Source of the DNA: Spongiibacter thalassae
GTDB taxonomy: Bacteria; Pseudomonadota; Gammaproteobacteria; Pseudomonadales; Spongiibacteraceae
NCBI RefSeq assembly: GCF_012272835.1
Contig: NZ_JAAWWK010000003.1
Location: 372,001 to 436,000 of the forward strand
Direction: 5' to 3'
Length of the DNA: 64,000 bases
This document shows, piece by piece, positions 30,896 through 51,522 of this stretch; position 1 is the stretch's first letter; each line of letters starts with the position of its first letter. A program made the translations under genes and the position numbers. The notes beneath the pieces are model-generated. The model did not search any database, was not told where the DNA came from, and saw only the letters and a program-made list of their open reading frames with translations.

Positions 30896-31861
30896 ATGTT
30901 ATCAAACGTGCTCAGTAATGCCGTGGTTTTTGCTCAGGCACACCCGCTAGAAGTATCCGATTACTTCAGTCGTCATGTCGGGCACCACATACTGGAATTT
31001 GCGGATCGGGTTTGCAGTCGCACGCAAGCCTCTCGCCTCAATTACCGTGATTTCGCTGGCCTCGGGCTGGCATCCATCAGCTACGGTGATAAGGTGAATG
31101 TTCGTTGTCCCGAACCTCGAGAGATCTACCATTTTCAGTTTGTGGCCCGAGGTGAATGCCTTTGGCGCTTCCCGGACAAGAACATTCGGCTGTTGCCTGG
31201 TCAAGCACTTATGGTTAATCCCTATGATCGAGTATCGCTAACGTATTCTGCTGATTGCGAAAAAGTTATTGTTACAGTGCCTCCAGCGCTGATCAACGAA
31301 ATATGCCTTGATCAGGCAGGCTCATTGCCTCGTGAAGGGGTTAAGTTTTCATCTGATGTTATAGACTTGAGTGAATCGGCATGTTTCCTGAGGTTGCTGG
31401 ATGTGCTGTTAGCAGAGGCCAATGGCAGCGAGTTGGGTCTGGAGCATGTGCAGCGGCCCTATCGCGAAATTCTGATCCGCAAGCTGCTGCATCAGTTCAG
31501 CAGCAATATTGCCTCCGAGCATGGCCTACACGCCAATGATCCCAGTTTTTGCCACCTCTTGGCTTACATCGAGACCAATATCCGCGCTGACCTGAGCGTT
31601 GAAGAACTGGCGCAGGTGGGGAATGTGAGTACCCGCACCGTCTACAACTTGTTTGCCAAGTATTTTAGTGTGACGCCGAAGCTGTTCATCAAGCAAGCCA
31701 AGCTGAAAAGCCTGCGTGAAGATTTGGCCGGTGGCAAGGCTATTCGCAATGTGACGGAAGTTGCTTTGGACTACGGCTTTACCCACCTTGGGCGTTTTTC
31801 ATCCGACTATCGCAAGATGTTTGGTGAGCTGCCGTCGGAAACGCTGCAGCGCAGGCGCTGA
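30896..31861 (+). CDS. xylS: XylS/BenR-type AraC-family activator
   Basis: About 321 residues (a GTG three codons upstream is an alternative start). The N-terminal effector domain shares with XylS the order VSDYFSRHVG, ISYGDKVNV, YHFQFVARGECLWR and PGQALMVNPYDRVSLTYSADCEK. The C-terminal double helix-turn-helix reads LSVEELAQVGNVSTRTVYNLFAKYF and TEVALDYGFTHLGRFSSDYRKMFGELPS. XylS/BenR proteins bind benzoate or toluates and activate Pm-type promoters. Two promoters with matching boxes lie in this window, near xylX and upstream of xylC. On pWW0 xylS follows the meta operon; here it precedes the upper operon. Confidence 0.85.
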   Translation: MLSNVLSNAVVFAQAHPLEVSDYFSRHVGHHILEFADRVCSRTQASRLNYRDFAGLGLASISYGDKVNVRCPEPREIYHFQFVARGECLWRFPDKNIRLLPGQALMVNPYDRVSLTYSADCEKVIVTVPPALINEICLDQAGSLPREGVKFSSDVIDLSESACFLRLLDVLLAEANGSELGLEHVQRPYREILIRKLLHQFSSNIASEHGLHANDPSFCHLLAYIETNIRADLSVEELAQVGNVSTRTVYNLFAKYFSVTPKLFIKQAKLKSLREDLAGGKAIRNVTEVALDYGFTHLGRFSSDYRKMFGELPSETLQRRR

Positions 31862-31906: not shown

Positions 31907-31931
31907 CGGCACGCCTGATTTAGGCGTGCCG
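31907..31931. terminator. Hairpin between convergent xylS-like and IclR genes
   Basis: CGGCACGCC and GGCGTGCCG form a perfect 9-bp stem with a 7-base loop. The last codons and stop of the IclR gene lie inside it. It could terminate both convergent transcripts, although the T-tract is weak. Confidence 0.6.
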
Positions 31932-32741
31932 TTTCAGTTGTGGCTGACCGCAGATCTCATCCGTGACCTTCTGTACGCAGGTTATCAGCTGTTGCCGTAG
32001 CGGTGAACCCGAGGTGATGTCGGTGTCGCAGGCCATCCCTATCAGGCTGACGGCCGATGAGATGTGGCCGTTGATATCGTAAATGGCGCTGCCCGCCACG
32101 TTCAGGTCCGGTAAGTAGTCGCCGTAGAAACAACACAGGTTGTCGTTCCTAACCTGAAGCAGGTGTTGTCGAAACTGTTCGCGCTCAAGGGCACGGCCGC
32201 CATGACGAGGCAGGGCCGGTGGATGCTGGAAAAACTGCTCCAGTATCTCTTCACGGCGCTCATGGGGTAGGCTGGCAAGGAAAATTCGGCCTGACACTGA
32301 GAAGAAGGGAGACAGTTCCAGCCCCAACCGTATATTGACAGCGACGGGAGAGGTGGAGTCCAGCCATTTGATTACCAGCGGCGCATGGCCGTTCCAGATT
32401 GTCACCGATACGGTCCTGTTGCTGGCCTTATTCAGCTCTTCAGCCGCACTGAAAACCAGTCGAATCGGATCGATGCGGCGAATGGCTGCTACTCCGAGTG
32501 TCAGGCAGGATCTGCCCAGCGTGTAGCCGTTGCCGGTGTCATGAGCGATATGGCCCATGCGCAGCAGGCTGACCAAGTACTTGTGCAGTCGGCTGGGCGA
32601 AAGCGACAGCCGGTCGGACAGGTTTTTGAGGGTCACGGGCCTGGGTGACTCTGCAATGGTATCCAGAATTCGCAAGCCGATCTCAAGAGAACCGATCCCT
32701 TGACGTGGGGGGTTGGCATTTTTTTCTATTTCTGCAGTCAT
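31920..32741 (-). CDS. IclR-family transcriptional regulator
   Basis: 273 residues. N-terminal winged helix (IGSLEIGLRILDTIAES, TLKNLSDRLSLSPSRLHKYLVSLLRMGHI) and C-terminal effector domain (TIWNGHAPLVIKWLDS; FSVSGRIFLASLP). IclR regulators often control aromatic catabolic operons, and position suggests a role in the xyl genes or a flanking operon, but TOL plasmids have no such gene. Convergent with the xylS-like gene. Confidence 0.85.
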   Translation of the reverse strand: MTAEIEKNANPPRQGIGSLEIGLRILDTIAESPRPVTLKNLSDRLSLSPSRLHKYLVSLLRMGHIAHDTGNGYTLGRSCLTLGVAAIRRIDPIRLVFSAAEELNKASNRTVSVTIWNGHAPLVIKWLDSTSPVAVNIRLGLELSPFFSVSGRIFLASLPHERREEILEQFFQHPPALPRHGGRALEREQFRQHLLQVRNDNLCCFYGDYLPDLNVAGSAIYDINGHISSAVSLIGMACDTDITSGSPLRQQLITCVQKVTDEICGQPQLKRHA

Positions 32742-33016
32742 AGGCGGGGTCCCTGTAGTGCTGCTTGGATGGGGGATTGTACTCGTAACCGATCCGGATC
32801 GGGTGGCAAGTAAGTTGTTCAGACAGCGAGGTTGGACTCAACCTCGTCCAGCCGTGCCATCAGCTGCTCGGAATTGTCACTGAATATCAACCTGCCTTGG
32901 TCACTTGCCGCCATATATCGCTCATTTCACTGAATGCTTATCCGGGACTCTGGGAATAATTCAGGCTGTTGCTTTCGGTGTTGTTAATAGTGTGATGCAT
33001 TCCAAAATACAACATT

Positions 33017-33078
33017 TGCAGTATCAGGACAAAGAATGCGCTGTCCGGATAGTCACCCCCGGGGACTTATATCATTAT
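33017..33078 (+). promoter_or_regulatory. Diverged second Pm-type promoter upstream of xylC
   Basis: TGCAGTATCAGGACA (33017-33031) and TGCGCTGTCCGGATA (33037-33051) are two direct boxes, each one base off the XylS consensus TGCA-N6-GGNTA. They are 20 bp apart start to start, with CATTAT exactly 21 bases after the second box. The xylX promoter at 50089-50150 has the same box spacing and the same 21-base gap. Similarity continues about 23 bases further upstream (32994 versus 50066; 22 of 27 bases from there through the first TGCA). A duplicated Pm rather than a chance match. Confidence 0.75.
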
Positions 33079-33098
33079 CAACAAGAATAAAGGAATCC

Positions 33099-33233
33099 AC
33101 GCAAGGCAATAGAATGGCAAAAGTAGGCAGCGTTATCAAAGGCTACGGCGAAAAACACCTTTGTCGTGACCGTTGGGGCATGGTTGTTGATCCTGAGTTG
33201 TTCGAGCACAGACGAAGAATGCGGGGGGGATAG
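33099..33233 (+). pseudogene. 5' relic of a second xylX (dioxygenase alpha subunit)
   Basis: Codon by codon alignment with the start of xylX at 50176 holds without gaps: position 1 is ACG instead of ATG, then position 6 is ATG (33114), followed by AKVGSVIK, and VDPELFE matches TDPELFE of xylX. Similarity ends near 33212 and a stop follows at 33231-33233. An ATG-started peptide of 39 residues remains possible from 33114. It shows that the promoter just upstream came from a benzoate/toluate dioxygenase operon. Confidence 0.75.
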
Positions 33234-33406
33234 TAACGTCTGTCTGGCGCGTGGAAACCAGGGCACAATTCTAACAGTTAGTCCAAGACGCAATCTGGTC
33301 AGAAGGTTAGGCAGTAGTGCGTTCTCGTATTCCGCTTGACTCCGGGGTCGGAATGTATTTGATGCGGGCGCAATAATCAATAACTATTAAATGTGGAGGG
33401 GGAGTG

Positions 33407-34873
33407 ATGCAGCAAGAAAGAAGAGAGGCCTCTATTTGGTCTAGAAAAGTGTTCAGCTCTGGGTGGGTAGAAGCGCGGGGTGGTGTCTGTGATGTTACCG
33501 ATCCATCCAATGGCGATCTGCTTGGCGTTACGGGCATTGCAAATGGTGAGGATGTCGCCGCTGCTGCGCAGACAGCCAGGCGAGCTCAAAAGGGGTGGGC
33601 TGCAATACCCTTCAGTGAAAGAGCCGAGATTGTACGAAAGGCTGCGGAAAAACTGAAAGAGCGCGAAAATGAGTTCGCCGATTGGAACGTTCGGGAATGC
33701 GGCGCGATTCGACAGAAAGGCTTGTGGGAGGCCGGGATTACCTATCAGCAGATGCATCAGGCTGCGAGTTTGGCGTTCTTGCCTGATGGTACGTCGTTTC
33801 CATCGGCCGTTGCAGGGCGGCTGAACCTTTGTCAGCGAGTTCCAGTTGGCGTGGTCGGTGTGATTGCACCGTGGAACTTCCCGCTGTTCCTGTCTATGCG
33901 TTCGGTAGCGCCAGCGTTGGTGCTGGGTAATGCCGTAGTCTTAAAACCCGACCCTCAGACTGCCATCACTGGAGGCGCGCTCATTGCTGAGATATTTTCC
34001 GAGGCGGGTTTGCCAGATGGCGTTCTCCACGTCCTTCCGGGGGGGGCAGAAGCGGGGGAGTCAATGGTGGCGAGTCCAGAAATTGACATGATTTCTTTTA
34101 CCGGGTCGACCCAGGTGGGTCGGTTGATTGGAGAGAAATGCGGGGGAATGTTGAAAAAGGTTGCGCTTGAGCTCGGCGGAAACAATGTCCACATCGTTTT
34201 GCCTGATGCAGATCTTGATGGAGCCGCCAGTTGCGCTGCATGGGGCACATTTTTACATCAGGGCCAAGTGTGCATGGCCGCTGGGCGTCATCTGGTGCAT
34301 CGTGACATTGCGCAGGAATACGCAGAGAAGCTTGCGCTACGTGCTCGGAATCTGGTGGTTGGAGATCCGAAAACGGATCAAGTACACCTCGGTCCTCTTA
34401 TCAACGATAAACAAGTGGCACACGTCCATGCTCTCGTAGAATCTGCGCAAAAGGCCGGCGCAAAGATCTTGGCGGGAGGTACCTATCAGGATCGCTACTA
34501 CCAAGCTACCGTGCTCATGGACGTAACGCCGAAAATGGATGTTTTCAAGTTGGAAACTTTCGGCCCAGTGGCACCAATCACAGTTGTCGACAGCGTAGAG
34601 GAAGCCATCGAATTGGCAAACAGTTCGGAATATGGCTTGGCTGCGTCTATTCATACTGAGGCCTTGGCGACGGGGCTAGAGATTGCGAGGAGTTTAAAGA
34701 CAGGAATGGTCCATATCAATGACCAACCGATCAACTGTGAGCCACATGTTCCTTTCGGAGGGATGGGGGCTTCGGGTAGCGGTGGAAGGTTTGGCGGACT
34801 TGCAAGTATTGATGAATTTACTAAGTCGCAATGGATTAGTATGGTTGAGAAGCCAGCTAGTTACCCATTCTGA
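33407..34873 (+). CDS. xylC: Benzaldehyde dehydrogenase
   Basis: 488 residues, very close to XylC of TOL plasmids throughout (for example KVFSSGWVEARGGV near the start and GMVHINDQPINCEPHVPFGGMG near the end). It oxidises (methyl)benzaldehydes to benzoate/toluates with NAD+. Catalytic Cys is in FLHQGQVCMAAGR, and ELGGNN holds the general-base Glu. An ATG after GGAGGGGG is used; a GTG one codon upstream is possible. First gene of the upper operon, 28 bases before xylM. xylU and xylW, which precede xylC on pWW0, are absent. Confidence 0.95.
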   Translation: MQQERREASIWSRKVFSSGWVEARGGVCDVTDPSNGDLLGVTGIANGEDVAAAAQTARRAQKGWAAIPFSERAEIVRKAAEKLKERENEFADWNVRECGAIRQKGLWEAGITYQQMHQAASLAFLPDGTSFPSAVAGRLNLCQRVPVGVVGVIAPWNFPLFLSMRSVAPALVLGNAVVLKPDPQTAITGGALIAEIFSEAGLPDGVLHVLPGGAEAGESMVASPEIDMISFTGSTQVGRLIGEKCGGMLKKVALELGGNNVHIVLPDADLDGAASCAAWGTFLHQGQVCMAAGRHLVHRDIAQEYAEKLALRARNLVVGDPKTDQVHLGPLINDKQVAHVHALVESAQKAGAKILAGGTYQDRYYQATVLMDVTPKMDVFKLETFGPVAPITVVDSVEEAIELANSSEYGLAASIHTEALATGLEIARSLKTGMVHINDQPINCEPHVPFGGMGASGSGGRFGGLASIDEFTKSQWISMVEKPASYPF

Positions 34874-34900
34874 GTTGACAATAATAAGTAGGAGAGATAT

Positions 34901-35992
34901 ATGGATGCGCTACGTTATTACCTGATTCCTGTTGTAACTGCCTGCGGGCTGATCGGATTTTACTATGGCGAAGATTGGGTTTGGCTTGGCGCCGCCACGT
35001 TTCCGGCGCTGATGGTGCTTGACATCCTTCTGCCGAAGGATTTTGCGGCCCGAAAGGTCAATGCGTTTTTGGCATACCTTCCTTTATATTTGCAATTGCC
35101 AATGATGATTGGACTATATGGCTTCTTGATCTGGGGAGTCCGAGAGGGGCGTATCGATCTTGGTGAGCCCTCACAAGTGATAGGATGTATTCTTTCCTTG
35201 GGTTGGCTGAGTGGTGTGCCTACTCTGCCGGTCAACCATGAGCTGATGCATCGCCGCCACTGGTTGCCGCGTAGGATAGCGCAGCTATTAGGCACGTTTT
35301 ATGGTGATCCGAGCCGGGATATTGCACATGTCAATACGCATCACCTTTATCTAGATACGCTTTATGACAGTGACACTCCATACCGTGGCCAAACTATATA
35401 TAGTTTTGTGTTCACTGCAACGGTAGGTTCTGTCAAAGACGCACTGAAGATCGAGGCCGAAATTTTGCGCAAAAGAGGGAAGTCGCCTTGGCACCTCTCC
35501 AACAGAGTATATCAATACCTTGCGCTCCTGTTTGCCCTGCCTTGCTTGGTTGCGTACTTGGCAGGACCGGCTTTAGGGTTGATGACGGTTGCTGCAATGA
35601 TTGTAGCGAAAGGACTTGTCGAGGGTTTTAACTACTTTCAGCACTATGGATTGGTGCGGGACCCCAATCAGCCCATCCTTCTACATCATGCTTGGAATCA
35701 TATGGGCAGGATCGCTCGTCCGCTAGGTTGCGAAATTACTAACCATATCAATCACCATTTGGACGGATATACGCCGTTTTATCAACTGCGCCCGGAAAGG
35801 GAGGCCCCGCAAATGCCCTCGCTCTTCCTCTGTTTCCTGCTAGGGCTAGTGCCGCCGCTTTGGTTTAATCTTGTTGCGAAACCCAAATTGAAGGATTGGG
35901 ATCTGCAATATGCCACGCCCGGTGAGCGAAAGTTGGCCGTGGAGGCTAATAAAAGTGCAGGCTGGCCAAAGTGGATACCACAGGAAGCTTAA
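34901..35992 (+). CDS. xylM: Xylene/toluene monooxygenase hydroxylase subunit
   Basis: 363 residues, an AlkB-type membrane di-iron enzyme that hydroxylates the methyl group of toluene and xylenes. Histidine boxes are present: HELMHRRH, HVNTHH and NHINHH, plus NYFQHYG. Several hydrophobic segments flank them. The N-terminus RYYLIPVVTACGLIGFYYG is nearly that of pWW0 XylM. Electrons come from XylA. The DNA of xylM-A-B-N looks more AT-rich than the meta genes. A strong hairpin follows the gene before xylA. Confidence 0.95.
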   Translation: MDALRYYLIPVVTACGLIGFYYGEDWVWLGAATFPALMVLDILLPKDFAARKVNAFLAYLPLYLQLPMMIGLYGFLIWGVREGRIDLGEPSQVIGCILSLGWLSGVPTLPVNHELMHRRHWLPRRIAQLLGTFYGDPSRDIAHVNTHHLYLDTLYDSDTPYRGQTIYSFVFTATVGSVKDALKIEAEILRKRGKSPWHLSNRVYQYLALLFALPCLVAYLAGPALGLMTVAAMIVAKGLVEGFNYFQHYGLVRDPNQPILLHHAWNHMGRIARPLGCEITNHINHHLDGYTPFYQLRPEREAPQMPSLFLCFLLGLVPPLWFNLVAKPKLKDWDLQYATPGERKLAVEANKSAGWPKWIPQEA

Positions 35993-36008
35993 TGATTATA
36001 TTAAGCTG

Positions 36009-36081
36009 GTGGCCGTTCACGTCTGGCAATCTCGACTGAAAAATTTGGGATTGCTGGCACCTGATTGGGGGGAACGGCCAC
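36009..36081. repeat. 10-bp inverted repeat after xylM
   Basis: GTGGCCGTTC (36009-36018) and GAACGGCCAC (36072-36081) are exact complements 53 bases apart, in the 299-base xylM-xylA gap. No gene is seen in this gap. Confidence 0.5.
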
Positions 36082-36121
36082 TAGGTTAATAGCAGTCAAC
36101 GTGTAGAATTTTTTTGATGTT

Positions 36122-36165: not shown

Positions 36166-36291
36166 ATCAAAAGAATTTGTGTGCCGGCGGACGCGTCATC
36201 TCCCCTGCTGCCATAAACGCCTGGAGCAAAGATGTCGTTCTGGTATTTGCACAAGTAATGACCACGAAGTTTTAATGATGGACGCTTGAAT

Positions 36292-37344
36292 ATGTTTGAG
36301 AAAATCATTGGCCTATTTGCTCCTTCTCGAGAACTAACTGTTTCTGTGAAAGAGCAAGGAGTGAAATTTAAAGTTCCACGAGGTCTGACAATTTTGGAAA
36401 GTGCGCTGCATCAAGGGCTTGCGTTTCCACATGAGTGCAAAGTTGGAAGCTGTGGTGCGTGTAAATATAAACTAGTCTCGGGGAAGATAGGCGAACTGGC
36501 ATCATCTGCTATGGGGCTAAGTGGTGATTTATATCAGTCTGGATATCGACTGGGTTGCCAGTGTATACCTAAGGAAGACTTGGAAATTGAACTGGATGCA
36601 CCACTCGGAAGGGCTATTATTCCTGAAGAGACCACAGCCTCGATTAGTGAACAGAAAACTCTGGCACATGATGTAATCGGATTGACTCTAATACCAGAAA
36701 AACCAATATCTTTTAATCCTGGTCAGTATGCTGATATTGAATACACAGAACTGTCTGTTGTAAGAAGTTATTCATTTTCGACTCCACCCCAAGCTGACGG
36801 CAGCCTGAACTTTCATGTCCGCGTAGTCCCAGGAGGCGTTTTCAGTGGTTGGCTATTTGGTGGTGATCGAGCTGGGACCACCGTGACGTTGCGAGGCCCG
36901 TATGGACAGTTTGGGTTCCATGAAAGCGACGACGTGATGGTCTGCGTGGCTGGTGGAACGGGGCTCGCACCCATTAAATGCATTTTGGAGAGCATGACCG
37001 GAACCCAACGCGAGCGTGATGTTTTCTTATTTTTTGGGGTGCGGCAGCAGCGTGATTTATATTGCCTTGAACAAATTCAAGCGCTTCAACGGGATTGGGG
37101 TGGACACTTAGAGCTTATTCCAGTGTTGTCCGAAGAACCGGCGACATCCTCCTGGAAAGGGAAACGAGGCATGGTGACTGAATATTTTCAAGAATATCTG
37201 CAGGGGCGGTCGTGTGAAGCATACCTCTGCGGGCCACCGCCGATGGTTGACGCGGCTGAGACCGAGCTTCTTCGACTTGGTGTGGCGCATGGATCGATAT
37301 ATGCAGATCGTTTTTACAATCGAACCGCTGCGACCGCGCAATAG
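36292..37344 (+). CDS. xylA: Xylene monooxygenase electron-transfer component
   Basis: 350 residues. N-terminal plant-type 2Fe-2S domain with CKVGSCGACKYK and CQC (residues about 48-86), then an FAD domain (RSYSFSTPP) and NAD-binding domain (GGTGLAPIK; CGPPPMV). It passes electrons from NADH to XylM. Close to pWW0 XylA along its length, including GDLYQSGYRLGCQCIPKEDLEIEL. An ATG at 36292 is used; a TTG two codons upstream is possible. Confidence 0.95.
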   Translation: MFEKIIGLFAPSRELTVSVKEQGVKFKVPRGLTILESALHQGLAFPHECKVGSCGACKYKLVSGKIGELASSAMGLSGDLYQSGYRLGCQCIPKEDLEIELDAPLGRAIIPEETTASISEQKTLAHDVIGLTLIPEKPISFNPGQYADIEYTELSVVRSYSFSTPPQADGSLNFHVRVVPGGVFSGWLFGGDRAGTTVTLRGPYGQFGFHESDDVMVCVAGGTGLAPIKCILESMTGTQRERDVFLFFGVRQQRDLYCLEQIQALQRDWGGHLELIPVLSEEPATSSWKGKRGMVTEYFQEYLQGRSCEAYLCGPPPMVDAAETELLRLGVAHGSIYADRFYNRTAATAQ

Positions 37345-37467
37345 TGCCAGGAGTGTAAGGGGGAATTACCTTTTTGGTTAAGCACATCCGGAAAAGAGTG
37401 TGTTGAGCTTGGCGAGAGATGATGAGTGGTTTTTAAACTGTGTGATGATTCAAAAACGGAGACCAAA

Positions 37468-38568
37468 ATGAAAATAAAAGCAGCAGTTGTTCGTCAAAAA
37501 AGTGGTCCATTTGAACTCGAAGATTTAGTCCTTAATGAGCCTGCTGAGGATCAAATTCTGGTTCGAGTGGTTGCGACGGGAATGTGTCATACCGATCTGA
37601 TTTGTCGTGATCAGCATTACCCGGTTCCTCTCCCGATGGTGTTTGGGCATGAGGGGGCTGGCGTGGTTGAGAAGGTTGGATCTTCTGTCAAAAAAGTACA
37701 ACCGGGCGATCATGTTGTTCTGACTTTTTATACTTGTGGTGGTTGTGAAGCATGCCTTTCCGGTGATCCCACAAGTTGTGCCAACTCTTTCGTCCCCAAT
37801 TTTATGGGGCGCTCAGTTACCGGTGAGTGCACCATTCACGAACACAATGGAGAGGAAGTTGGGGCGAGTTTTTTTGGGCAGTCTTCCTTTGCGACCTATG
37901 CTTTGTCTTACGAACGCAACACTGTGAAGGTCACTAAAGACGTCCCACTTGAACTCCTTGGGCCGCTCGGGTGCGGCATTCAGACGGGCGCAGGGTCTGT
38001 TCTTAATGCACTCAATCCTCCTGCGGGCTCCGCTATCGTGATCTTTGGTGCTGGGGCCGTAGGTCTTTCTGCAGTGATGGCTTCCGTCGTGGCCGGATGT
38101 ACGAAGATTATCTCCGTCGATGTCAAGAAAAATCGCCTGAAATTAGCTCATGAGCTTGGGGCGACCCACGTGATTGATGCAACAAATACTGATCCAGTTG
38201 AGGAGATCAAGAAACTGTGCGCTGATGGGGCTCCGTATGTGCTGGAAACCAGCGGTTTGCCTTCCGTGCTGTCGCAAGCGATCTTGAGCTCCGCCGTAGG
38301 TGGTGAGATCGGTATTGTTGGTGCACCACCAATGGGGACCACAGTCCCTGTTGATGTTAATTTTTTACTATTTAACCGTAAGCTCCGAGGAATTATTGAG
38401 GGTCAAGCTGTTTCGGATATCTTTATTCCAAGATTGGTGGAGTTGTATCGCCAAGGAAAGTTTCCGTTTGATAAATTAATTAAATTTTACTCATTTGATG
38501 AAATTGATCGAGCTGCGGAAGATTCGGAAAAAGGAATAACACTTAAGCCGGTAATTCGTATCGTTTAA
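37468..38568 (+). CDS. xylB: Benzyl alcohol dehydrogenase
   Basis: 366 residues, the length of TOL XylB. Zinc-dependent medium-chain alcohol dehydrogenase: catalytic zinc ligands in [15 protein letters not shown] and the later [10 protein letters not shown], structural zinc Cys in [15 protein letters not shown], and NAD-binding GAGAVG. It oxidises benzyl alcohols to benzaldehydes. The frame is open 14 codons upstream, but [10 protein letters not shown] is the conserved start. Confidence 0.95.
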
Positions 38569-38746
38569 AGGGATAAGAGTTCCTTCAAGCCTCGGTGCGC
38601 TGTTCTTACGGATAGCGTACAACCTCCTAATAAGTCGAAAGGCTTATAAATACAGTTTTATGCCGTTTATGCTAAAAGGAGGCATGATCGGTTGATAAGC
38701 TGAAATCATGGTTCATTAAACAAAAATAAAAAGGTGGTGAAAGGAT

Positions 38747-40142
38747 ATGCGATTTAAAATATTCAATAAATGCATTATCGGTCTGGTTCTGTATGTGATC
38801 TCATGCTACGCGATAGCGACGGAGGGATTGTTTCTAGAGGGATTTGGAGCGATTTCCAGGGGTATGGGAGGAACGGCCGCATCTCATTATGTCGGGCCTG
38901 CGTCAATGATGGTTAACCCGGCGACGATGGGTTTGTCCGATACGACAGGTGAAGTGTTGCTAGGGTTCGACCTGATTACTACGGATATTAGCGCGACGAA
39001 TCTTGGCACAGGTGAAAAGGTATCATCGAGTACGCACTCACATAATCGAGGGCCATATGTAGCCCCTCAGATTGCTTTCACCAGTAAAGTTTCAAATTGG
39101 ACCTTTGGTGCGGGCATGTTTGCTCAAGCTGGAGTGGGTGTTGAATATGGTGAATCTAGCTTTTTGTCGCGCGGCGATATTGGTGAGACGGGCTATGCTG
39201 CCGGTGCTGATACGGGGCTCGAGAATGCAAGTCGTCTGTTTATTCTCGACATACCGCTTGCTGCGAGTTTTAAGGTTAATGACGATCTCTCCGTCGGTGC
39301 AACCCTGGATGCAAAGTGGACAGGTTTGAATCTTGATTATTTGTTTGGAAGTAAACAGTTGGGTAGTCTCATTGGGGATGGCCGCGCGTCCGGGTCGCTA
39401 CTGGGATTGGTCGGGACTTTACCTGATCCACGCGGAGTACACATAAGCGTCAGCAAAAACAAAGAAGTCTCAAGTGGTGTTGATGGTTGGGGGTACTCGG
39501 GTAGATTAGGTATGGCGTACAAGGTGACGCCCAAAACAAATTTGGGCATTTCCTACATGTTCAAGAGTAAAATGAACGATTTGAAAGGGAACGGAACGGT
39601 CACTGCGGTTGACGGTATCGTGGGAAATATACCTATTGAAGGACAAGTACGAGTTTTGGATTTTAATAGTCCTGCCAAATTGGATGTAGGGGTGAGTCAT
39701 CAATTCACTGACAAATTCCTGGTCGCTTTAGATCTGTCTCGGGTTTTCTGGAAGGACGCCCTGAAGGATATTAAGGTGGGGTTTGCCAGTGACCGCCGGA
39801 GATGTTGATCTGAAGCTTCCTCAGAATGCCAAGGATCATACGATAGTGGCGATTGGAGCGTCGTATGCCGCGACCCAAAATTTAACGTTGCGGGCAGGAT
39901 ACCGTCAGGCTACGCAGCCATTCAATGATGAGGGGTTGTTGGCCCTGATTCCAGCAGTTCTGAAGAGGCATGCAACCTTAGGCATTAGCTACCAAGTTTC
40001 AAAATCAGGCAGGTTCGATGCCGCATACTCTCGAGCCTTTGAGCATAGCATGACCAACCAATCGGATTTTAACACCTCATCAGCTGTCAGGTCGTCCATA
40101 GCGCAAGATAATTTTGTTTTTGGCTATACCCATTCATTCTAA
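38747..40142 (+). pseudogene. xylN: Outer-membrane xylene channel XylN, one-base frameshift
   Basis: A FadL-type barrel with signal peptide (LVLYVISCYAIA) and the hatch-like start EGFGAISRGMGGTAAS. The first frame reads to KVGFASD near 39790, then stops at 39808. Skipping one C around 39791-39793 restores AGDVDLKLPQNAKDHTIVAIGASY and reads to the barrel end FVFGYTHSF. Joined length is about 464 residues, the pWW0 length (465). Either a recent mutation or a sequencing error. XylN carries aromatic hydrocarbons across the outer membrane. Confidence 0.85.
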
Positions 40143-41660: not shown

Positions 41661-41752
41661 CAAGCCGTTTACCTTAAGTGGTGCTGGCTTGGGTGACAAG
41701 GCCGACGAAAGCGCTATACTACTGGATATCCAGACAGTATGGCGCTTTTTTT

Positions 41753-42678
41753 ATGGGTTCGATATCTGGCCAGCAGCAACATCCCCGCATCCCTCTTCCA
41801 GTGGCTGGCATTCAGGTCAATGGGTGCCGCAATCCGACATGTGAAAGCTTTTTGGCACTGACTCCTGTCAAAAATTCTGATGGAGCAGTTGAAGTTAGCC
41901 TCGGCGCTTACGAGAAAGGGAGTGGTCTCTTTCAAGTGTCCGGAACCGGTAAAGGAACCTCATCGATTTTCTGTTTAAAGTGCCGTGAGAAAAAGCGCGA
42001 TGGACTTGAGGTTGGCGCAATTTCTACCTCACTGAAAAGCAATCAGGCTGTGGTTGAAGAGTTAAACCGAATTTCACGTCATTTAGATCCAAAGATGCCT
42101 TCTTGTCCAAATGCCGACTGTGATAGCAATATAGGTAACGTCGCCGGATCAGTCAAAAGAAATGGCCGAACGGCATCCGGCAATCAGCGCCTGAAATGTG
42201 GGGTTTGCGGCAAAGGTTTTACATCGCGCCCAAAAACCCGGAAGCATTCCAAGCCTCACATTGACATCCAGATACTTAAGCTTCTCGTTAGCAAGGTTCC
42301 TATTCGCAGAATCGCGTTCCTCTGTGACATATCCACGAAAACTGTTTACGACAAGATTCGGTTCCTCTATCGGCAGTGTCAGGAATTTTCAGCCGGTAGA
42401 GAAAGGGATCTTGAGAACAGAGCGTTCAGGAGAATGTATTTTTGCACGGATCGTCAAGTTGTGGTGAGCAACTGGACCAAGCGAGAGGACAAACGAAATT
42501 GCGATATCTACGGGATTGCTACAGCGTGCAAGGATACCGGTTACGTATTTGCCTTTAACTTTAATTTCGACGGCAGTGTCGATGCAGAAGAAATTGAGAA
42601 GGACGCTGAGGCGATTGGCGAATATGAAACCCCTCGACACCACCGAAAGTACGCCCGTGTATGGCTACGGCAAGAGTT
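41753..42678 (+). pseudogene. Unclassified zinc-finger transposase, 5' half
   Basis: From an ATG at 41753 (MGSISGQQQ). It has two Cys clusters: CRNPTC with CLKC about 45 residues later, then CPNADC with CGVCGKGF. These resemble zinc ribbons of IS1- or IS1595-like transposases. A helix-turn-helix-like stretch follows (ILKLLVSKVPIRRIAFLCDISTKTVYDKIR). Interrupted by IS21 within codon 309. A 9-bp target duplication recalls IS1, but the protein is far larger. I cannot place the family. Confidence 0.7.
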
Positions 42679-42695
42679 GCATATTCCGGCCCAAT

Positions 42696-42766
42696 CTGAA
42701 CACCGATTCTGATTGAACGTGAACACCCATTCCGATCGAACGTGAACACCGATTCCGGTGCAACGT
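42696..42766 (+). repeat. Tandem terminal repeats at left end of IS21 element
   Basis: Three units of about 23 bases, each close to GAACACCGATTCCGRTYGAACGT, in tandem; related inverted copies occur at 42785-42835 and near the right end (45268-45300). These are likely transposase-binding sites. Confidence 0.8.
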
Positions 42767-42897
42767 GAACACTTTTACCGGCTTTTCCGGAATCGGTGTT
42801 CATCATCCCGGAAGGGGTGTTCACGTTGCCCCGGAATCCTTCCCAACGCATTGATTTTTCTTTGATTTGCTACCCTCTCCGATTTTTTGGAGCGGGT

Positions 42898-44439
42898 ATG
42901 TCAGCCAAGAGGATCACCATGCGTAATATTCGAGAAGTCTTGCGGCTGCGCTTTGCCGCCAAGTTGTCCCTGCGTCAGATCAGGGCCAGTACCAAGATTA
43001 GCCTGGGCGCCATCCAGAAGCTGGTCGCCCGGGCCGAGGAACTGGGCCTGGATTGGCCCCTGTCTGAGGCGCTGGATGAGCAACGGCTTGCTCAGCTGTT
43101 CTACCCCGGGGCCGACACTACCGTCTCCAGCCGCTTTCCATTGCCGGACTGGTCGACAGTCCATCAGGAGCTCAAGCGCAAGGGCGTGACCAAGCTGCTG
43201 CTGTGGGAGGAGTACACCCAGCAGCACCCCAACCGTTGCTACAGCTATTCTCAGTTCTGCGATCTGTACCGCCAGTGGTGTCAGACCCAGAAGCGTTCCA
43301 TGCGCCAGACTCACAAGGCCGGTGAGAAGGGCTTTGTCGATTACTGCGGCCAGACGGTGCCCATCGTCAGCGCCAGCACCGGGGAGATCCGCGAGGCGCA
43401 GGTCTTTGTCGGGGTGCTGGGTGCGTCCAACTACACCTTTGCCGAGGCCACCCTGAGCCAGTCCCTGCCGGACTGGCTGGGCAGCCATGTGCGGATGCTG
43501 GAGTTCTTTGGCGGCGCCCCAACGATGGTGATTCCGGACAACCTGCGCAGCGGGGTCAGCAAGGCTTGCCGCTATGATCCCGACCTCAACCCCAGCTACC
43601 AGCAATGGGCTGAACACTATGGGGTGGCGGTCGTACCCGCACGGCCCTACAAGCCCAAGGACAAAGCCAAGGCCGAAGTCGGCGTTCAGATCGTGGAGCG
43701 CTGGATTCTGGCAAGATTACGCCGCCAGACTTTCTTCTCGTTGGCGGAGCTGAATCAGTGTATCCGCGCCTTGCTGGAGGAACTGAACCGCAAACCCTTC
43801 AAGCAACTGCCCGGCAACCGCCGCGAGGCCTTTGCCGCACTGGATCAGCCGGCACTGCAACCGCTACCTACACAGCCTTACCGCTTCGTGGACATCAAGC
43901 CGGTGAAGGTCAATATCGACTACCACGTCCAGTATCAGCAGCACCATTACTCGGTGCCGCACCAGTATGTGGGCGAGACCCTGGAGCTGCAGGCTGGCGA
44001 ATCCCTGGTCACGCTGTACTTCCGCCAGCGCCAGATTGCCAGTCACCCGCGTAAACCCCATCCCGGCACCACCACCGATGCCGCCCATATGCCCACCCGC
44101 CATCGCCAGCATCAGCAGTGGACACCGGGGCGGCTTAAAAACTGGGCGAAGGATGTTGGCCCAGAGGTGCTGATCTGGGTCGATCGACAACTGGCGTCCA
44201 GAGCCCATCCCGAGCAGGCCTACCGGGTGTGTCTGGGCCTGCTCAGCCTCAGCCGTGAGTATCCGGCAGCGCGATTGAATGCCGCCTGCCAGATCGCCAA
44301 TGCCGAGGGCCTGGTTCGCCTCAAGCAGATTAAATCCGTCTTGCGCAGTCATCGCGACAGTCTGCCCAAACAGGCCGATCTGACGCTGGCGCTACCGCAG
44401 GATCACGACAATATCCGTGGCCCCAAGCACTTCCACTGA
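42898..44439 (+). CDS. istA: IS21 transposase IstA
   Basis: 513 residues. N-terminal helix-turn-helix (IREVLRLRFAAKLSLRQIRASTKISLGAIQKL), then an RNase H-like integrase core with GEKGFVDYCGQTV, VIPDNLRSGV and KAKAEVGVQIVERW providing the DDE triad. The ATG at 42898 follows GGAGCGGGT; upstream in-frame codons overlap the terminal repeats. Confidence 0.93.
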   Translation: MSAKRITMRNIREVLRLRFAAKLSLRQIRASTKISLGAIQKLVARAEELGLDWPLSEALDEQRLAQLFYPGADTTVSSRFPLPDWSTVHQELKRKGVTKLLLWEEYTQQHPNRCYSYSQFCDLYRQWCQTQKRSMRQTHKAGEKGFVDYCGQTVPIVSASTGEIREAQVFVGVLGASNYTFAEATLSQSLPDWLGSHVRMLEFFGGAPTMVIPDNLRSGVSKACRYDPDLNPSYQQWAEHYGVAVVPARPYKPKDKAKAEVGVQIVERWILARLRRQTFFSLAELNQCIRALLEELNRKPFKQLPGNRREAFAALDQPALQPLPTQPYRFVDIKPVKVNIDYHVQYQQHHYSVPHQYVGETLELQAGESLVTLYFRQRQIASHPRKPHPGTTTDAAHMPTRHRQHQQWTPGRLKNWAKDVGPEVLIWVDRQLASRAHPEQAYRVCLGLLSLSREYPAARLNAACQIANAEGLVRLKQIKSVLRSHRDSLPKQADLTLALPQDHDNIRGPKHFH

Positions 44440-44481
44440 GTCCCACAAACACACTCAACCCACACACCAAGGAGCACCACC

Positions 44482-45237
44482 ATGAGCACTCAAACCCTGA
44501 CCCACTTGCGCCAGCTTAAACTCGGCGGCATGGCCAGCGCCCTGCAAACCCAGTTGGAGCAGCCGGGCACCTACGAGGGCCTGGCCTTCCTTGAACGGCT
44601 CAATCTACTGCTGGATGACGAGAACCTCAGCCGCCAGTCGCGTAAGCAGGAACGACTGATCCGTCAGGCCCGCTTTAAACTGCGCGCCAGCGTGCAGGAC
44701 ATCGACTACCAGCACCCCCGGGGCCTCACACCCAGCACGGTCGCGTCATTGGCTCAGGGCGACTGGATAGCGCGGGCGCAGAACCTGCTGATCACCGGCC
44801 CCTGCGGCAGCGGCAAAACCTATCTGGCCTGTGCACTGGGGCACAGTGCCTGCCTGCGCGATTACAGCGTGCGTTACTACCGGCTGTCGCGTTTGCTGCT
44901 GGCGCTCACACAGGCCAAGGCCGACGGCAGCTATCACAAGCAGCTCGCGCAACTGGCCAAGGTGGATTTGCTGGTGATTGATGACTGGGGACTAGACGCA
45001 CTCACGGCGGCCCACCGCAACGATCTGATGGAGATCATGGACGACCGCCACGGCCATCGCGCCACCCTGATGATTAGCCAGCTGCCCACCGACCAGTGGT
45101 ACACCAGCATCGGCGATAACACCCTGGCTGACGCTATTCTCGACCGGCTCATGCACAACGCCCACCGGCTAAACCTGAAGGGTGAATCCATGCGGAAAAT
45201 TCTTGGCCAGTTGACCGAAGATGAACACCTGAGTTAA
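44482..45237 (+). CDS. istB: IS21 helper ATPase IstB
   Basis: 251 residues. AAA+ ATPase with Walker A GPCGSGKTY and Walker B LLVIDDWG, and the family C-terminal SIGDNTLADAILDRLMHNAHRLNLKGESMRK. Works with IstA in target selection and strand transfer. AAGGAGCACC precedes the start. Confidence 0.94.
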   Translation: MSTQTLTHLRQLKLGGMASALQTQLEQPGTYEGLAFLERLNLLLDDENLSRQSRKQERLIRQARFKLRASVQDIDYQHPRGLTPSTVASLAQGDWIARAQNLLITGPCGSGKTYLACALGHSACLRDYSVRYYRLSRLLLALTQAKADGSYHKQLAQLAKVDLLVIDDWGLDALTAAHRNDLMEIMDDRHGHRATLMISQLPTDQWYTSIGDNTLADAILDRLMHNAHRLNLKGESMRKILGQLTEDEHLS

Positions 45238-45323
45238 AAACACCAACCGATCAAGCGTTGAGAAATCCGGTGTTCACGTTACTCCGGAATCGCTGTTCAA
45301 ATTCACCGGAATACGCAAGAGTT

Positions 45324-47439: not shown

Positions 47440-49344
47440 GTACGCCAGGAAAAGCTGGCAAAAGATAGTGGGTGAAAGTCCCGCACGGGGTAAGGCCTAG
47501 CCAGCTGCCCCGGCCCCGAGTCATGCGCACCCGATCGCGAGGTCGCGTGTGAAGTGTTGACAGGGGAAACCATGGGCTCGGTATTGAGCTGCGAAACCCA
47601 ATTCTGGAGAGCGGATGTTGTTAAGCGAAACAGAAGGCAACAATCATCTCAGCGCGATGGCAAGCTGTGGTGGCACTCCACGCAGTCGTAGACCCGGTGC
47701 ACGTGGCGACGTCTTTTGTGCGGAACCTGGGAGGTCTCACCCACCCCGGCATAGCCGAGGCGACTTACCGAAGGGTAACACCGCAGGATGAGTATGAACG
47801 TGGGTGAGAAGTCGGATCCGGTCGTAGTACCTGAGAAGATCTCGAACAACGGTGCGAAGGTACCTGCGGAGAGATTGGAGGAAAGGACCGGACCCAAGGG
47901 AAACGGTCAGCGAGCCGCCGCAGTCTGGACTCAGAGCCAGGTCGCTGCGTCGCCCGGTTTGCTGACCGTGCGCCAGGCGGCGCAACGGAACAAAGAAACT
48001 CGCTTCTCTGCGTTGCTACATCATGTTGATATTCCGCTGTTACACCAAAGCTACTTTGCGCTCAAGCGCAGATCGGCCGCTGGTATAGACGGAGTGACAT
48101 GGGAAGCGTATGGGAGCGAGCTAGATGCGAGGTTAGAGAATCTCAACCGCCGTATCCACAAGGGGAGCTACCGAGCCAGACCCGCAAGGCGGGTTTACAT
48201 TCCGAAGGCGGATGGTTCGACAAGGCCCCTTGGCATCCAGTGCCTGGAAGACAAAATTGTTCAACAGGCAGTGGTGTTCGTCCTGAATGCGATCTACGAG
48301 CCGGACTTTATGGGGTTCTCCTATGGTTTTCGGCCGGGTCGAGGACAACACGACGCACTGGATGCGGTACAGGCGGGACTTTATAGGAAGAAGATCAACT
48401 GGGTCCTGGACGCAGACATCCGTAAATTCTTCGACAGCATGTCGCACGAATGGATGATGCGATTCCTGGAGCACCGTATCGCGGACAAGCGCTTATTGCG
48501 CTTGATTCGGAAGTGGCTCACTGCCGGAGTGCAGGAAGATGGGCAGGTAATCAGAAGTGTGAAGGGCACTCCGCAGGGAGCTGTCATATCACCGGTACTC
48601 GCCAACATCTACCTGCACTATGTCTTCGACCTATGGGTCGATACCTGGCGAAAGAGGAGAGCGTATGGCGATGTGGTGGTCATACGCTACGCTGACGACA
48701 CAGTGCTGGGATTCCAGTACGAGCGTGATGCGTACACCTTCAGGCAAGCCCTTGCTGGCAGGCTAGCTAAATTCGGTCTGGACTTACATCCCGATAAAAC
48801 CCGGCTGATCCAGTTTGGCCGTTTTGCGTCGGCGAAGCGTCGGCAAAGGGGGTTGGGGAAGCCGGAAACTTTCGAGTTTCTGGGCTTTACTCACTATTGC
48901 ACCCGATCTCGCCAAAATGGCTGGTTCAAGATTGCCCGCGTAACGTCGCGCAAGCGACTGCGGGCGCAGTTGCGGGCGGTAAAAGACGCCCTGCGACGGC
49001 GAATAAATCGGCCCATTGGCGAAACCGGGCGCTGGCTCCGCCGCGTAATCCAGGGGCACATGAACTACTTCGCCGTCCCTGGAAACGGGGAGAGGGTGTC
49101 GGGGTTCGTGTTCCGGGTATCTCGGCTATGGCTCAAGATGCTCCGGCGTCGAAGCCAACGCCACCGAATGCCCTGGTCACGCTTCGCTGCGATCCGTAAC
49201 TTCTTCTTTCCGAAAGTCCGTATCTTGCATCCACAACCGTTGCATCGTTTTGACGCCAGAACCCGAGGGAGGAGCCCAGTGCGTTAGCAGCGCACGCTGG
49301 GATCTGTGCGGGGGGTGCTGAGTGATCAGCATTCCTACCGCGAC
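47440..49344 (+). mobile_element. Group II intron with reverse transcriptase (boundaries approximate)
   Basis: The 5' region (47440-47787) is a structured-looking non-coding stretch containing GTGGGTGAAAGTCCCGCAC. The internal gene is a maturase-reverse transcriptase. The 3' part has domain V (GAGCCCAGTGCG...GCGCACGCTGGG, 49272-49300) and a domain VI-like hairpin with CCTACCG, ending near GCGAC at 49344. The left boundary is set by the abrupt end of IS66 sequence at GGCCGCTTA and is uncertain by tens of bases. Confidence 0.85.
47788..49287 (+). CDS. ltrA: Group II intron reverse transcriptase/maturase
   Basis: 499 residues. RT blocks are clear: RRSAAGIDGVTWEAY, RPLGIQCLEDKIVQQAVVFVLNAIYEPDFMGFSYGFRPGRG, DADIRKFFDSM, GTPQGAVISPVLANIYLHYVFD, and the catalytic VIRYADD. 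A maturase (X) region follows (RRVIQGHMNYFAVPGN). No HNH endonuclease domain is visible at the C-terminus. It promotes splicing and retrohoming of its host intron. Apparently intact. Confidence 0.93.
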   Translation: MSMNVGEKSDPVVVPEKISNNGAKVPAERLEERTGPKGNGQRAAAVWTQSQVAASPGLLTVRQAAQRNKETRFSALLHHVDIPLLHQSYFALKRRSAAGIDGVTWEAYGSELDARLENLNRRIHKGSYRARPARRVYIPKADGSTRPLGIQCLEDKIVQQAVVFVLNAIYEPDFMGFSYGFRPGRGQHDALDAVQAGLYRKKINWVLDADIRKFFDSMSHEWMMRFLEHRIADKRLLRLIRKWLTAGVQEDGQVIRSVKGTPQGAVISPVLANIYLHYVFDLWVDTWRKRRAYGDVVVIRYADDTVLGFQYERDAYTFRQALAGRLAKFGLDLHPDKTRLIQFGRFASAKRRQRGLGKPETFEFLGFTHYCTRSRQNGWFKIARVTSRKRLRAQLRAVKDALRRRINRPIGETGRWLRRVIQGHMNYFAVPGNGERVSGFVFRVSRLWLKMLRRRSQRHRMPWSRFAAIRNFFFPKVRILHPQPLHRFDARTRGRSPVR

Positions 49345-49666
49345 CGTTTGTCAGCCATGCAGTTCTGCAAGCAAGACCATATCGGCTACGCCAGTTTCTG
49401 CAACTGGCGCAAGCGCCTGTCCGATCCGTCGACTGATGAGTCGTCAGGTTCCGCTGAAGCCGGTTTTCTGGATGTCTCATAGTTGGTGGGCAGGTCTCCA
49501 TCATCCGGTCCGGGCTGGAACATTGTGCTTAGCCTCGGCAACGGCGCCAAACTGCGGCTGAGCCAGCACGGATGATCGGGCTCGATAGCCAGGCGCGCAT
49601 CTGGCTGTGTGCCGAGCCCACCAACATGCGCAAATCGTTTCGGGGCCTGAGTGCCCTGGTCCGGGC
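49345..49666 (+). pseudogene. IS66-family TnpA/TnpB remnant
   Basis: One frame reads RDRLSAMQFCKQDHIGYASFCNWRKRLSDPSTDE, an in-frame TAG, then LVGRSPSSGPGWNIVLSLGNGAKLRLSQHG and TGA: an IS66 TnpA with a nonsense codon and lost start. The TnpB start overlaps its stop (ATGA at 49572) and reads RIWLCAEPTNMRKSFRGLSALV before breaking off at about 49666. Confidence 0.78.
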
Positions 49667-49719
49667 GGCGACAACTTCGCCAGCACTGCTGCTTTACGCT
49701 CATCGGAATAACGAGGCAC
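49665..49719 (-). pseudogene. N-terminal scrap of an IS transposase helix-turn-helix ORF
   Basis: Minus strand from a GTG at 49719 reads VPRYSDERKAAVLAKLSPP, the typical start of an IS3-type orfA. It breaks off where it meets the IS66 TnpB remnant. Confidence 0.5.
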
Positions 49720-49756
49720 TATCAACACCTGAACCGCCAAACTGGTTAAAAATTAA

Positions 49757-50001
49757 GTAGTGCCAACTATCCTGCCAGAGGGGGCATGGCTGAATGAGGT
49801 GGGGGGCTGGTTTGGTCAGCTGGAACGTCGTGCTTTATACCGTGCATTTTCACAAGTGTGGGCGAACTCAAAACGGCGATTCGTCGCTTTATCAAGACTC
49901 ATAGTGAGAAGTTGGCAAAGCCGTTTCGCTGGCACAAGAGTGCAGAATCGATTATGACTTCCGTGGCGCGAGCAAAACTGAGTGTTATTGATAATAAATA
50001 A
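49757..50001 (+). pseudogene. IS630-family transposase C-terminal fragment, frameshifted
   Basis: Reads AWLNEVGGWFGQLERRALYRAFS, then after a shift near 49868 ELKTAIRRFIKTHSEKLAKPFRWHKSAESIM and a stop at 49999-50001. This is the last third of an IS630 transposase. It ends about 90 bases before the xylX promoter boxes. Confidence 0.78.
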
Positions 50002-50088
50002 ACGGATTACCCAGACAGATCACTAGTACGTTAATGACGCTGCCGTACGATTTAATTGAACAGAAGATGCAATACAAAATCCAGCCTT

Positions 50089-50150
50089 TGCAATCCTAGG
50101 ATAAAGAGTGCACTCACTGGATAGTGATTCCCGGGACGGCCCTTCAATAT
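50089..50150 (+). promoter_or_regulatory. Pm-type promoter of the meta operon with two XylS/BenR boxes
   Basis: TGCAATCCTAGGATA (50089-50103) and TGCACTCACTGGATA (50109-50123) both match TGCA-N6-GGNTA exactly. They are direct repeats 20 bp apart start to start. CAATAT (50145-50150) lies 21 bases after the second box, the same distance as the -10 in pWW0 Pm from memory. There is no good -35, as expected when the activator overlaps it. A start site near 50157 would leave a leader of about 20 bases before xylX. Confidence 0.85.
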
Positions 50151-50175
50151 GAAATCATAAAAAGGAGGGTGGTCC

Positions 50176-51522
50176 ATGCACAATAATCTGATAGCAAAAG
50201 TAGGCGGTCTAATCGAAACCGATGAAGAAAAAGGCCTGTATCGTGGTCGTCGCGACATGTTCACTGATCCCGAGTTGTTCGAGCTGGAGATGAAGTACAT
50301 CTTCGAAGGCAACTGGGTATATTTGGCGCATGAAAGCCAGGTTGCAAACCCAAACGACTATTTTACTGGTTATATCGGACGTCAGCCCATCGTCATTACC
50401 CGCAATAAAGATGGTGAGCTGAACTGCTTTATCAATGCCTGCACCCACCGTGGCGCTGTTCTTTGTCGCAAAAAAAAGGATAACAAGGCGGTTTTAACCT
50501 GCCCTTTCCACGGCTGGAGCTTCAATAACTCCGGAAAGTTGGTCAAGGTCAAGGATCCCGACAATGCCGGCTATCCGGATTCCTTTAACTGCGAAGGCTC
50601 TCATGACCTAAAAAAGGTGCGTCTGGAAAGCTACAAAGGCTTCCTTTTTGGCTCGCTGAATGATTATGTCAAACCGCTGACTGAACATTTGGGCGAAGCC
50701 GCCAAAATTATCGACATGATTGTAGATCAGTCGCCGGAAGGTCTGGAGGTGTTGCGTGGCTCATCGACTTACGTCTATGACGGCAACTGGAAAATGCAGG
50801 CCGAGAATGGTGCTGATGGGTACCACGCATCTGCTACTCATTGGAACTACGTTGCCACGGTGGCTCGTCGTAAGGCCGGCATGTCCACTGATGATGTTAA
50901 GGCGATGGACCTATCCACCTTTAATAAGCAAACCGGTGGATTCTATGCCTTCGAACATGGCCACATTCTGCTGTGGATGGACTGGCCTAATCCGGAGGAT
51001 CGCCCATTGTACTATCGCCGAAACGAACTTATCGAAAAGTTTGGCGCTGATCGTGCCGACTGGATGATAGGCAAGTTGCGTAACCTTTGCCTGTACCCGA
51101 ACGTATTCCTCATGGATCAGATGAGCTCCCAGATTCGTCACTTCCGTCCAATCTCCGTGGACAAGACCGAGGTCACCATATACTGCATCGCGCCCAAGGG
51201 GGAAAGTGCTGAAGCGCGTACCCACCGCATCCGTCAGTATGAAGACTTTTTTAACGCTTCCGGCATGGCGACTCCGGACGACCTAGAAGAGTTTCGTGCA
51301 TGCCAGGAAGGTTTTAAGGCCATGAAGCAACCTTGGAATGACCTAAGTCGTGGTGCTGAACACTGGATCGATGGGCCGGACGAAGGGGCGAAGAGTATCG
51401 ATTTGCACCCTATGATGAGTGGTAAGAAGTCTGAAGATGAGGGTCTGTTCATTGCTCAGCACCATTACTGGCAACAAATGATTGCCGAAGCGGCGCGCAA
51501 GGAAAAGGGAGAGCAACCATGA
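50176..51522 (+). CDS. xylX: Toluate/benzoate 1,2-dioxygenase large subunit
   Basis: 448 residues. Rieske centre CTHRG with CPFHGWSF (about residues 94-118); mononuclear iron ligands in the [12 protein letters not shown] segment (about residues 212-223). It adds O2 to benzoate/toluate to form the 1,2-cis-diol carboxylate. AAGGAGG precedes the ATG. The stop overlaps the xylY start (ATGA). First gene of a 13-gene operon in TOL order. Confidence 0.94.

Follow-up and report, generated by a model that had tools for sequence, protein, structure and literature searches.

How the genes that convert toluene to benzoate are switched on is the question raised by this locus. In the window (the whole stretch of 64,000 nucleotides analysed here), the upper operon starts with xylC (benzaldehyde dehydrogenase, 33407..34873), followed by xylM (xylene monooxygenase hydroxylase subunit, 34901..35992) and by three genes which we take to be xylA (monooxygenase electron-transfer subunit, 36286..37344), xylB (benzyl alcohol dehydrogenase, 37426..38568) and xylN (outer membrane transport protein, 38747..40142, in two reading frames), all on the forward strand. 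xylW was absent before xylC, the best match in the window (28%) lying inside the xylB ORF. The first-pass annotation had reported XylR as missing from the window, and this was borne out and extended to the whole genome. The 210 N-terminal residues of XylR found no match in the window's genome, in the Alteromonas oceanisediminis genome or in the plasmids of Marinobacter sp. SBY-1 and Alteromonas macleodii EZ55, while both controls (pWW0 and a Stutzerimonas genome) matched. The search of the window's genome with PF06505 gave no match either, but 14 controls were silent as well, so the absence of XylR rests on the other genome searches, including that with the N-terminal part.

The upper operon was a mosaic when compared with SBY-1. 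xylC and the region of about 37000-40000 were 99-100% identical, 34604-36100 only 69-85%, and XylM of the window was 77% identical to that of SBY-1 and 99% to that of Zhongshania sp. BJYM1. The SBY-1 XylN protein aligned to 38747-40142 in two different frames, with its residues 1-349 in one and 342-464 in the other, which points to a frameshift or an assembly error. Downstream of xylN, the stretch 42679-45314, with an IS21-type transposase ORF (42796-44439), was missing from SBY-1 and interrupted a region aligning to a 608-aa SBY-1 ORF without Pfam match; the preceding window ORF (41678-42712) gave a weak IS1-type match below the cut-off. A group II intron reverse transcriptase/maturase (47788-49287) was located just upstream of the meta operon.

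The promoter copy and the xylX relic before xylC

The DNA before xylC resembles the beginning of the meta operon of the same window. Between 32994-33206 and 50066-50284, which holds the meta-operon promoter and the first 36 codons of xylX, 148 of 222 alignment columns were identical (67%, 11 gaps), the reference promoter at 50089-50150 being assigned via its boxes and its xylX and not by assay. When 32501-33700 was compared with 49601-50700 by blastn, a single long collinear match was obtained (E = 5e-14), with a runner-up of E = 0.56. The stretch 32994-33233 reached a local alignment score of 70, and the maxima were 28 among 1000 dinucleotide shuffles and 25 among 1928 random pieces of the window. 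Each half was sufficient by itself: the promoter half scored 50, where shuffles reached at most 26, and for the xylX half the figures were 58 and 27. An alignment of the two regions had been set beforehand as the test of the first-pass reading, in which 32994-33233 was a diverged copy of the meta-operon promoter plus the start of xylX, and a result so far above the shuffles confirms that reading.

Two XylS/BenR-type sites could be predicted in the copy from their sequence pattern, all elements being on the forward strand. The distal one is TGCA-N6-GGACA (33017..33031, GGATA in BJYM1), and the proximal one, after a gap of 5 bp, is TGCG-N6-GGATA (33037..33051, TGCA in both Alteromonas records). 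Each was thus one base off TGCA-N6-GGNTA in the window's genome (GGACA, TGCG), and the TGCG half-site also occurs in Pben of P. fluorescens and in the meta promoter of BJYM1. A weakly matching -10-like hexamer, CATTAT (33073..33078), comes after another 21 bases, or 22 in BJYM1 and EZ55. With a spacer of 17 bp assumed, arithmetic on these coordinates would put the -35 hexamer at 33050..33055, its first two bases lying within the proximal site, as is described for Pm (PMC4225500). In the paralogous meta-operon promoter, paired TGCA-N6-GGATA sites (50089-50103 and 50109-50123, together 50089..50123) precede a -10-like CAATAT (50145..50150), and the first gene behind it is an intact dioxygenase alpha subunit of xylX/benA type (50176..51522), these elements too being on the forward strand. 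The distance of 21 bases was the same in the copy, the meta promoter and Pm, and the coordinates of copy and meta promoter agree with the earlier description of two boxes, a 5-base gap and 21 bases to the hexamer. The paired-site pattern with a 5-bp gap had two matches without mismatch in the 4.40-Mb genome, namely the copy and the meta promoter, and five with at most one mismatch (reversed control, one); the pattern was built to cover both promoters, therefore this count says only that there is no third exact site.

Behind the promoter copy, codons 1-36 of a xylX-type gene survive as a relic (33099..33206), and the ACG that the first-pass annotation had seen in place of the start codon was found at 33099-33101. 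This ACG was common to the five copies read, the sixth (A. oceanisediminis) being identical to EZ55, and in all five the similarity to xylX fades near codon 36. The relic contains early stops and has no codon-position bias. A selected leader peptide was considered and rejected, with differences at the three codon positions of 2, 3 and 4 between the window and BJYM1 and of 3, 5 and 2 between the window and EZ55, in contrast to 8, 15 and 65 in xylC (window/BJYM1). Nonsynonymous and synonymous changed codons numbered 4/2 (window/BJYM1), 8/0 (window/EZ55) and 4/3 (BJYM1/EZ55). A 39-codon ORF with an in-frame ATG at 33114 (33114..33233) is not conserved: EZ55 lacks the ATG, its ends differ among the three lineages, and coding bias is absent. 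To judge from these codon counts, the relic is free of coding constraint. Its bases changed little, however, 7-9 of 89 differing between lineages in 33092-33180 and more in the flanks.

A donor of the relic outside this group was also sought and rejected, as tblastn with the 36 codons against 72,556 plasmid records (E <=10) hit three places, in SBY-1 and EZ55 only. Between the 39-codon ORF and xylC, the rest of the leader covers 33240..33403. A scan of 32700-33460 gave no terminator-like site (0.6 expected by chance), and a structured regulatory RNA was rejected, the folding of 33085-33410 being no more stable than that of shuffles (z 0.61).

Distribution and history of the module

The copy was found before xylC in six records: the window, SBY-1, the Marinobacter MAG L031, Zhongshania sp. 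BJYM1, A. macleodii EZ55 and A. oceanisediminis, which span the genera Zhongshania, Marinobacter and Alteromonas. The module common to them (32955..33403), at whose left edge the homology of BJYM1 begins, comprises the promoter copy, the xylX relic and the leader. Only two of the 72,556 plasmid records matched, the SBY-1 plasmid (98.5%) and pAltEZ55 of EZ55 (76%). In the family, one of 20 other genomes carried the copy (BJYM1, 82%); among 390 genomes drawn from the order, the window's genome and BJYM1 matched, and two more gave matches of 27-30 bp only. Three of 45 XylM loci had the copy (BJYM1 L025, L031 and A. oceanisediminis L032), and paired sites were found in the same three (control 0). 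Seven classical loci (L026-L030, L034 and L036) had xylW before xylC (98-99% in six, 89% in L030) and no copy, and five of the seven also had XylR in the surrounding DNA examined.

No difference was seen between EZ55 and A. oceanisediminis in 2030 bp, and SBY-1 matched L031 at 99.75%; therefore the six records represent three diverged versions (window/SBY-1/L031, BJYM1 and Alteromonas). Between these lineages the copies were 82-87% identical (that of SBY-1 was 97% identical to the window). The meta promoters were 86-95% identical among themselves, copies and meta promoters 57-67%, and copies and Pm of pWW0 46-50%. Upstream homology to the window stops at about 32955 in BJYM1 and at 32866 in EZ55, so the promoter moves together with xylC, not always accompanied by the IclR and AraC genes. 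Despite the different upstream DNA of BJYM1 and EZ55, none of the three lineages has lost the link between module and xylC. These data are best explained by a single old capture before the lineages split, which would be the simplest history. On such comparisons of sequence, we judge the promoter capture to be real and ancestral. A literature search covering titles and the beginnings of abstracts returned no description of this arrangement among the matches listed.

Candidate regulators and rival explanations

The AraC-family regulator at 30896..31861 (forward strand) is the proposed activator of both promoters. Among the proteins of the genome it comes closest to XylS (40% to that of pWW0, E 1.5e-69; next-best protein 28%), and it contains the AraC_binding_2 and HTH_18 domains. 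R247, N251 and R300 of XylS were invariant among five aligned proteins, and Glu299 was replaced by Ser in the regulator of the window; these four we take to be base-contact residues of XylS. An ortholog (82-99%) occurred in four of the five other copy-bearing genomes or plasmids, two of them plasmids (SBY-1 and EZ55) and two genomes (L031 and L032). In the 110-contig assembly of BJYM1 no ortholog was found, the best relative being 40% identical. This relative, at 2035-2985 of L094 (C66), has the same R247/N251/R300 residues and is possibly a substitute regulator.

A. macleodii EZ55 grows on toluene and xylene and its cluster has been described (PMC6972757), the main text of that paper mentioning neither XylS, XylR and AraC nor a promoter. 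Its plasmid has the promoter-copy arrangement, and XylR was not detectable on it. Proteins with an XylR-type N-terminal part were found elsewhere, three in BJYM1 (62, 40 and 32% to XylR) and one in the L031 genome (66%). Three of them adjoin phenol hydroxylase genes, and the fourth has another such regulator on one side and Rieske oxygenase genes on the other; because of these neighbours they are read as probable DmpR-like or other sensors and not as a hidden XylR. It is still conceivable that they act on the upper genes of BJYM1 and L031.

The copy might instead be a dead by-product of rearrangement, with the upper operon read from another, perhaps constitutive, promoter in the leader or upstream. 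We consider this unlikely, even though the boxes are imperfect, the -10 is weak and the xylX piece is dead. When three copies were aligned with three meta promoters, no change was seen at 16 of the 18 positions in the boxes. Of the remaining columns, 23 of 80 were invariant within 32994-33091 (Fisher p 3e-6) and 83 of 196 over the whole alignment (Fisher p 1e-4); these p values are too small because the compared sequences are related. A dead copy is favoured by the comparison of the copies alone, in which the boxes were not clearly better conserved than the flanks (Fisher p 0.11, 0.02 and 0.23, likewise from related sequences). In the same comparison, the relic at 33092-33180 evolved more slowly than its flanks (Fisher p 0.03, 1.6e-4 and 1.1e-4, with the same relatedness). 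For the conservation of this dead xylX piece the captured-promoter model gives no explanation. Against a dead copy also stands the attachment of the module to xylC in three lineages with differing upstream DNA. Moreover, no sigma-70-like site that could replace it was found in 32700-33460 (0.9 expected by chance), in a consensus scan in which the copy itself scored nothing.

Control by the IclR-family regulator (31920..32741, reverse strand), as repressor or activator with the AraC boxes secondary, is very improbable. Its gene is divergent from the promoter copy, starting about 275 bp from the distal box, and is whole in SBY-1 and L031 (99.6-100% identical), and the protein is distantly related to the PcaR/PcaU/PobR subfamily, far below the subfamily cut-off. 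In both Alteromonas clusters, however, what was found of the gene is a remnant of about 70 codons from its end, adjoining the AraC gene and not xylC, and the gene was absent from the 1.3 kb examined upstream in BJYM1, yet all of them keep the copy and EZ55 grows on toluene with this remnant in its cluster. Sigma-54 promoters have the -24/-12 consensus TGGCACG-N4-TTGCW, and we give very little credit to one inside the relic (GG-N10-GC, 33104-33119) served by some other toluene-sensing enhancer-binding protein. It would fit the unusual conservation of the relic, the GG and GC kept in the four records scanned, and the other sigma-54 activators present in the window's genome. The best score in 32742-33406 was nevertheless 8/12, a background level reached by 126 core-bearing sites (score >=8, both strands of the 64-kb window), against 11/12 upstream of xylW in pWW0; an XylR-type sensor domain was not found in the window's genome, and the 9/12 site of BJYM1 (L025:1246) lies outside the shared module, before it. 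That an unlinked toluene sensor of another kind, such as a two-component system, drives the operon is hardly credible: a PAS-HisKA protein is present downstream of xylN in EZ55, but the ORFs examined downstream of xylN in SBY-1 and the window had no such Pfam match.

Proposed control and comparison with known systems

The probable answer is a captured promoter of Pben/Pm type, through which an XylS/BenR-like activator answering benzoate or toluate would drive both xylCMABN and the meta operon. The first-pass annotation had proposed that the upper operon captured a benzoate-type promoter, and this held up: homology, occurrence in six records and box constraint speak for it, and neither XylR nor a Pu-like site nor xylW was found. 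Its further proposal, control of xylCMABN by benzoate or toluate through this promoter, is a prediction, if the likeliest one. In an ancestor of the marine TOL element, the meta-operon promoter and the first xylX codons would have been joined to the DNA just before xylC; the xylX piece would then have decayed into a leader free of coding constraint, and the promoter copy would have replaced Pu and XylR. The AraC-family activator (here 30896-31861), holding benzoate or toluate, may bind both 15-bp repeats and recruit RNA polymerase, so that transcription beginning near 33085 would pass through about 320 nt of leader before reaching xylCMABN. The meta operon would be driven from 50089-50123 by this activator as well. 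Both halves of the pathway could thus be turned on by one regulator in response to one signal, the product with which the upper pathway ends, and, with the inducer made by the upper enzymes themselves, there would be a positive feedback set off by basal expression. That XylR, Pu and xylW were lost, leaving a single XylS/BenR-type activator, and that this product-fed loop was fixed once and kept in three marine genera, is a history which we hold with somewhat reserved confidence. If the loop exists, induction by benzoate or toluate should be bistable and history-dependent, with no direct response to toluene. The matter concerns the timing of induction in marine oil degraders.

Among known systems, the copy is closest to Pben of P. 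fluorescens, where an AraC-family activator, BenR, serves benABCD and two TGC(A/G)-N6-GGATA sites with a 5 bp gap lie immediately upstream of the -35, their importance being, for the authors, still to be determined (PMC1360089). The TGCG half-site of the copy also occurs in that benzoate-inducible promoter (PMC1360089). By this half-site and the 5-bp gap, the copy is nearer to Pben than to Pm of pWW0 (gap 6 bp). Unlike Pben, which serves a benzoate dioxygenase, it precedes toluene-to-benzoate genes, carries a xylX relic and has GGACA in its distal box. At Pm, XylS occupies the proximal of two TGCA-N6-GGNTA repeats before the distal one, and two bases of the proximal repeat fall within the -35 (PMC4225500, PMC5481539). 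The copy has in common with Pm the type of repeat, though each of its boxes is one base off, the distance of 21 bases to the -10 and the implied two-base overlap, and in the window its paralogue serves the operon that Pm serves in pWW0. Unlike the copies, Pm drives the meta operon, has the wider gap and is only 46-50% identical to them.

The job that the copy would do, expression of xylCMABN, is done in pWW0 by Pu with XylR and sigma-54; here, XylR, a Pu-like site and xylW were not found, and the predicted inducer is the product instead of the substrate. xylS of pWW0 is partly under XylR (PMC3253710), a control for which the window's genome would have no counterpart, as XylR was not found in it. 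The TOL plasmid is a textbook case of a regulatory network. Its two-regulator wiring, in which XylR acts on Pu and xylS and XylS acts on Pm, has been interpreted as a metabolic amplifier (PMC3253710). If the proposed control is true, related enzymes under one regulator and the opposite order of signals would offer a natural control for that explanation, and promoter capture would have rewired a catabolic pathway and left a scar that is still readable. On naphthalene plasmids, NahR with salicylate lets a pathway intermediate induce the upper and lower operons via one regulator. NahR is of LysR type and uses other sites, whereas the control proposed here would be of AraC/XylS type and would have been reached via promoter capture.
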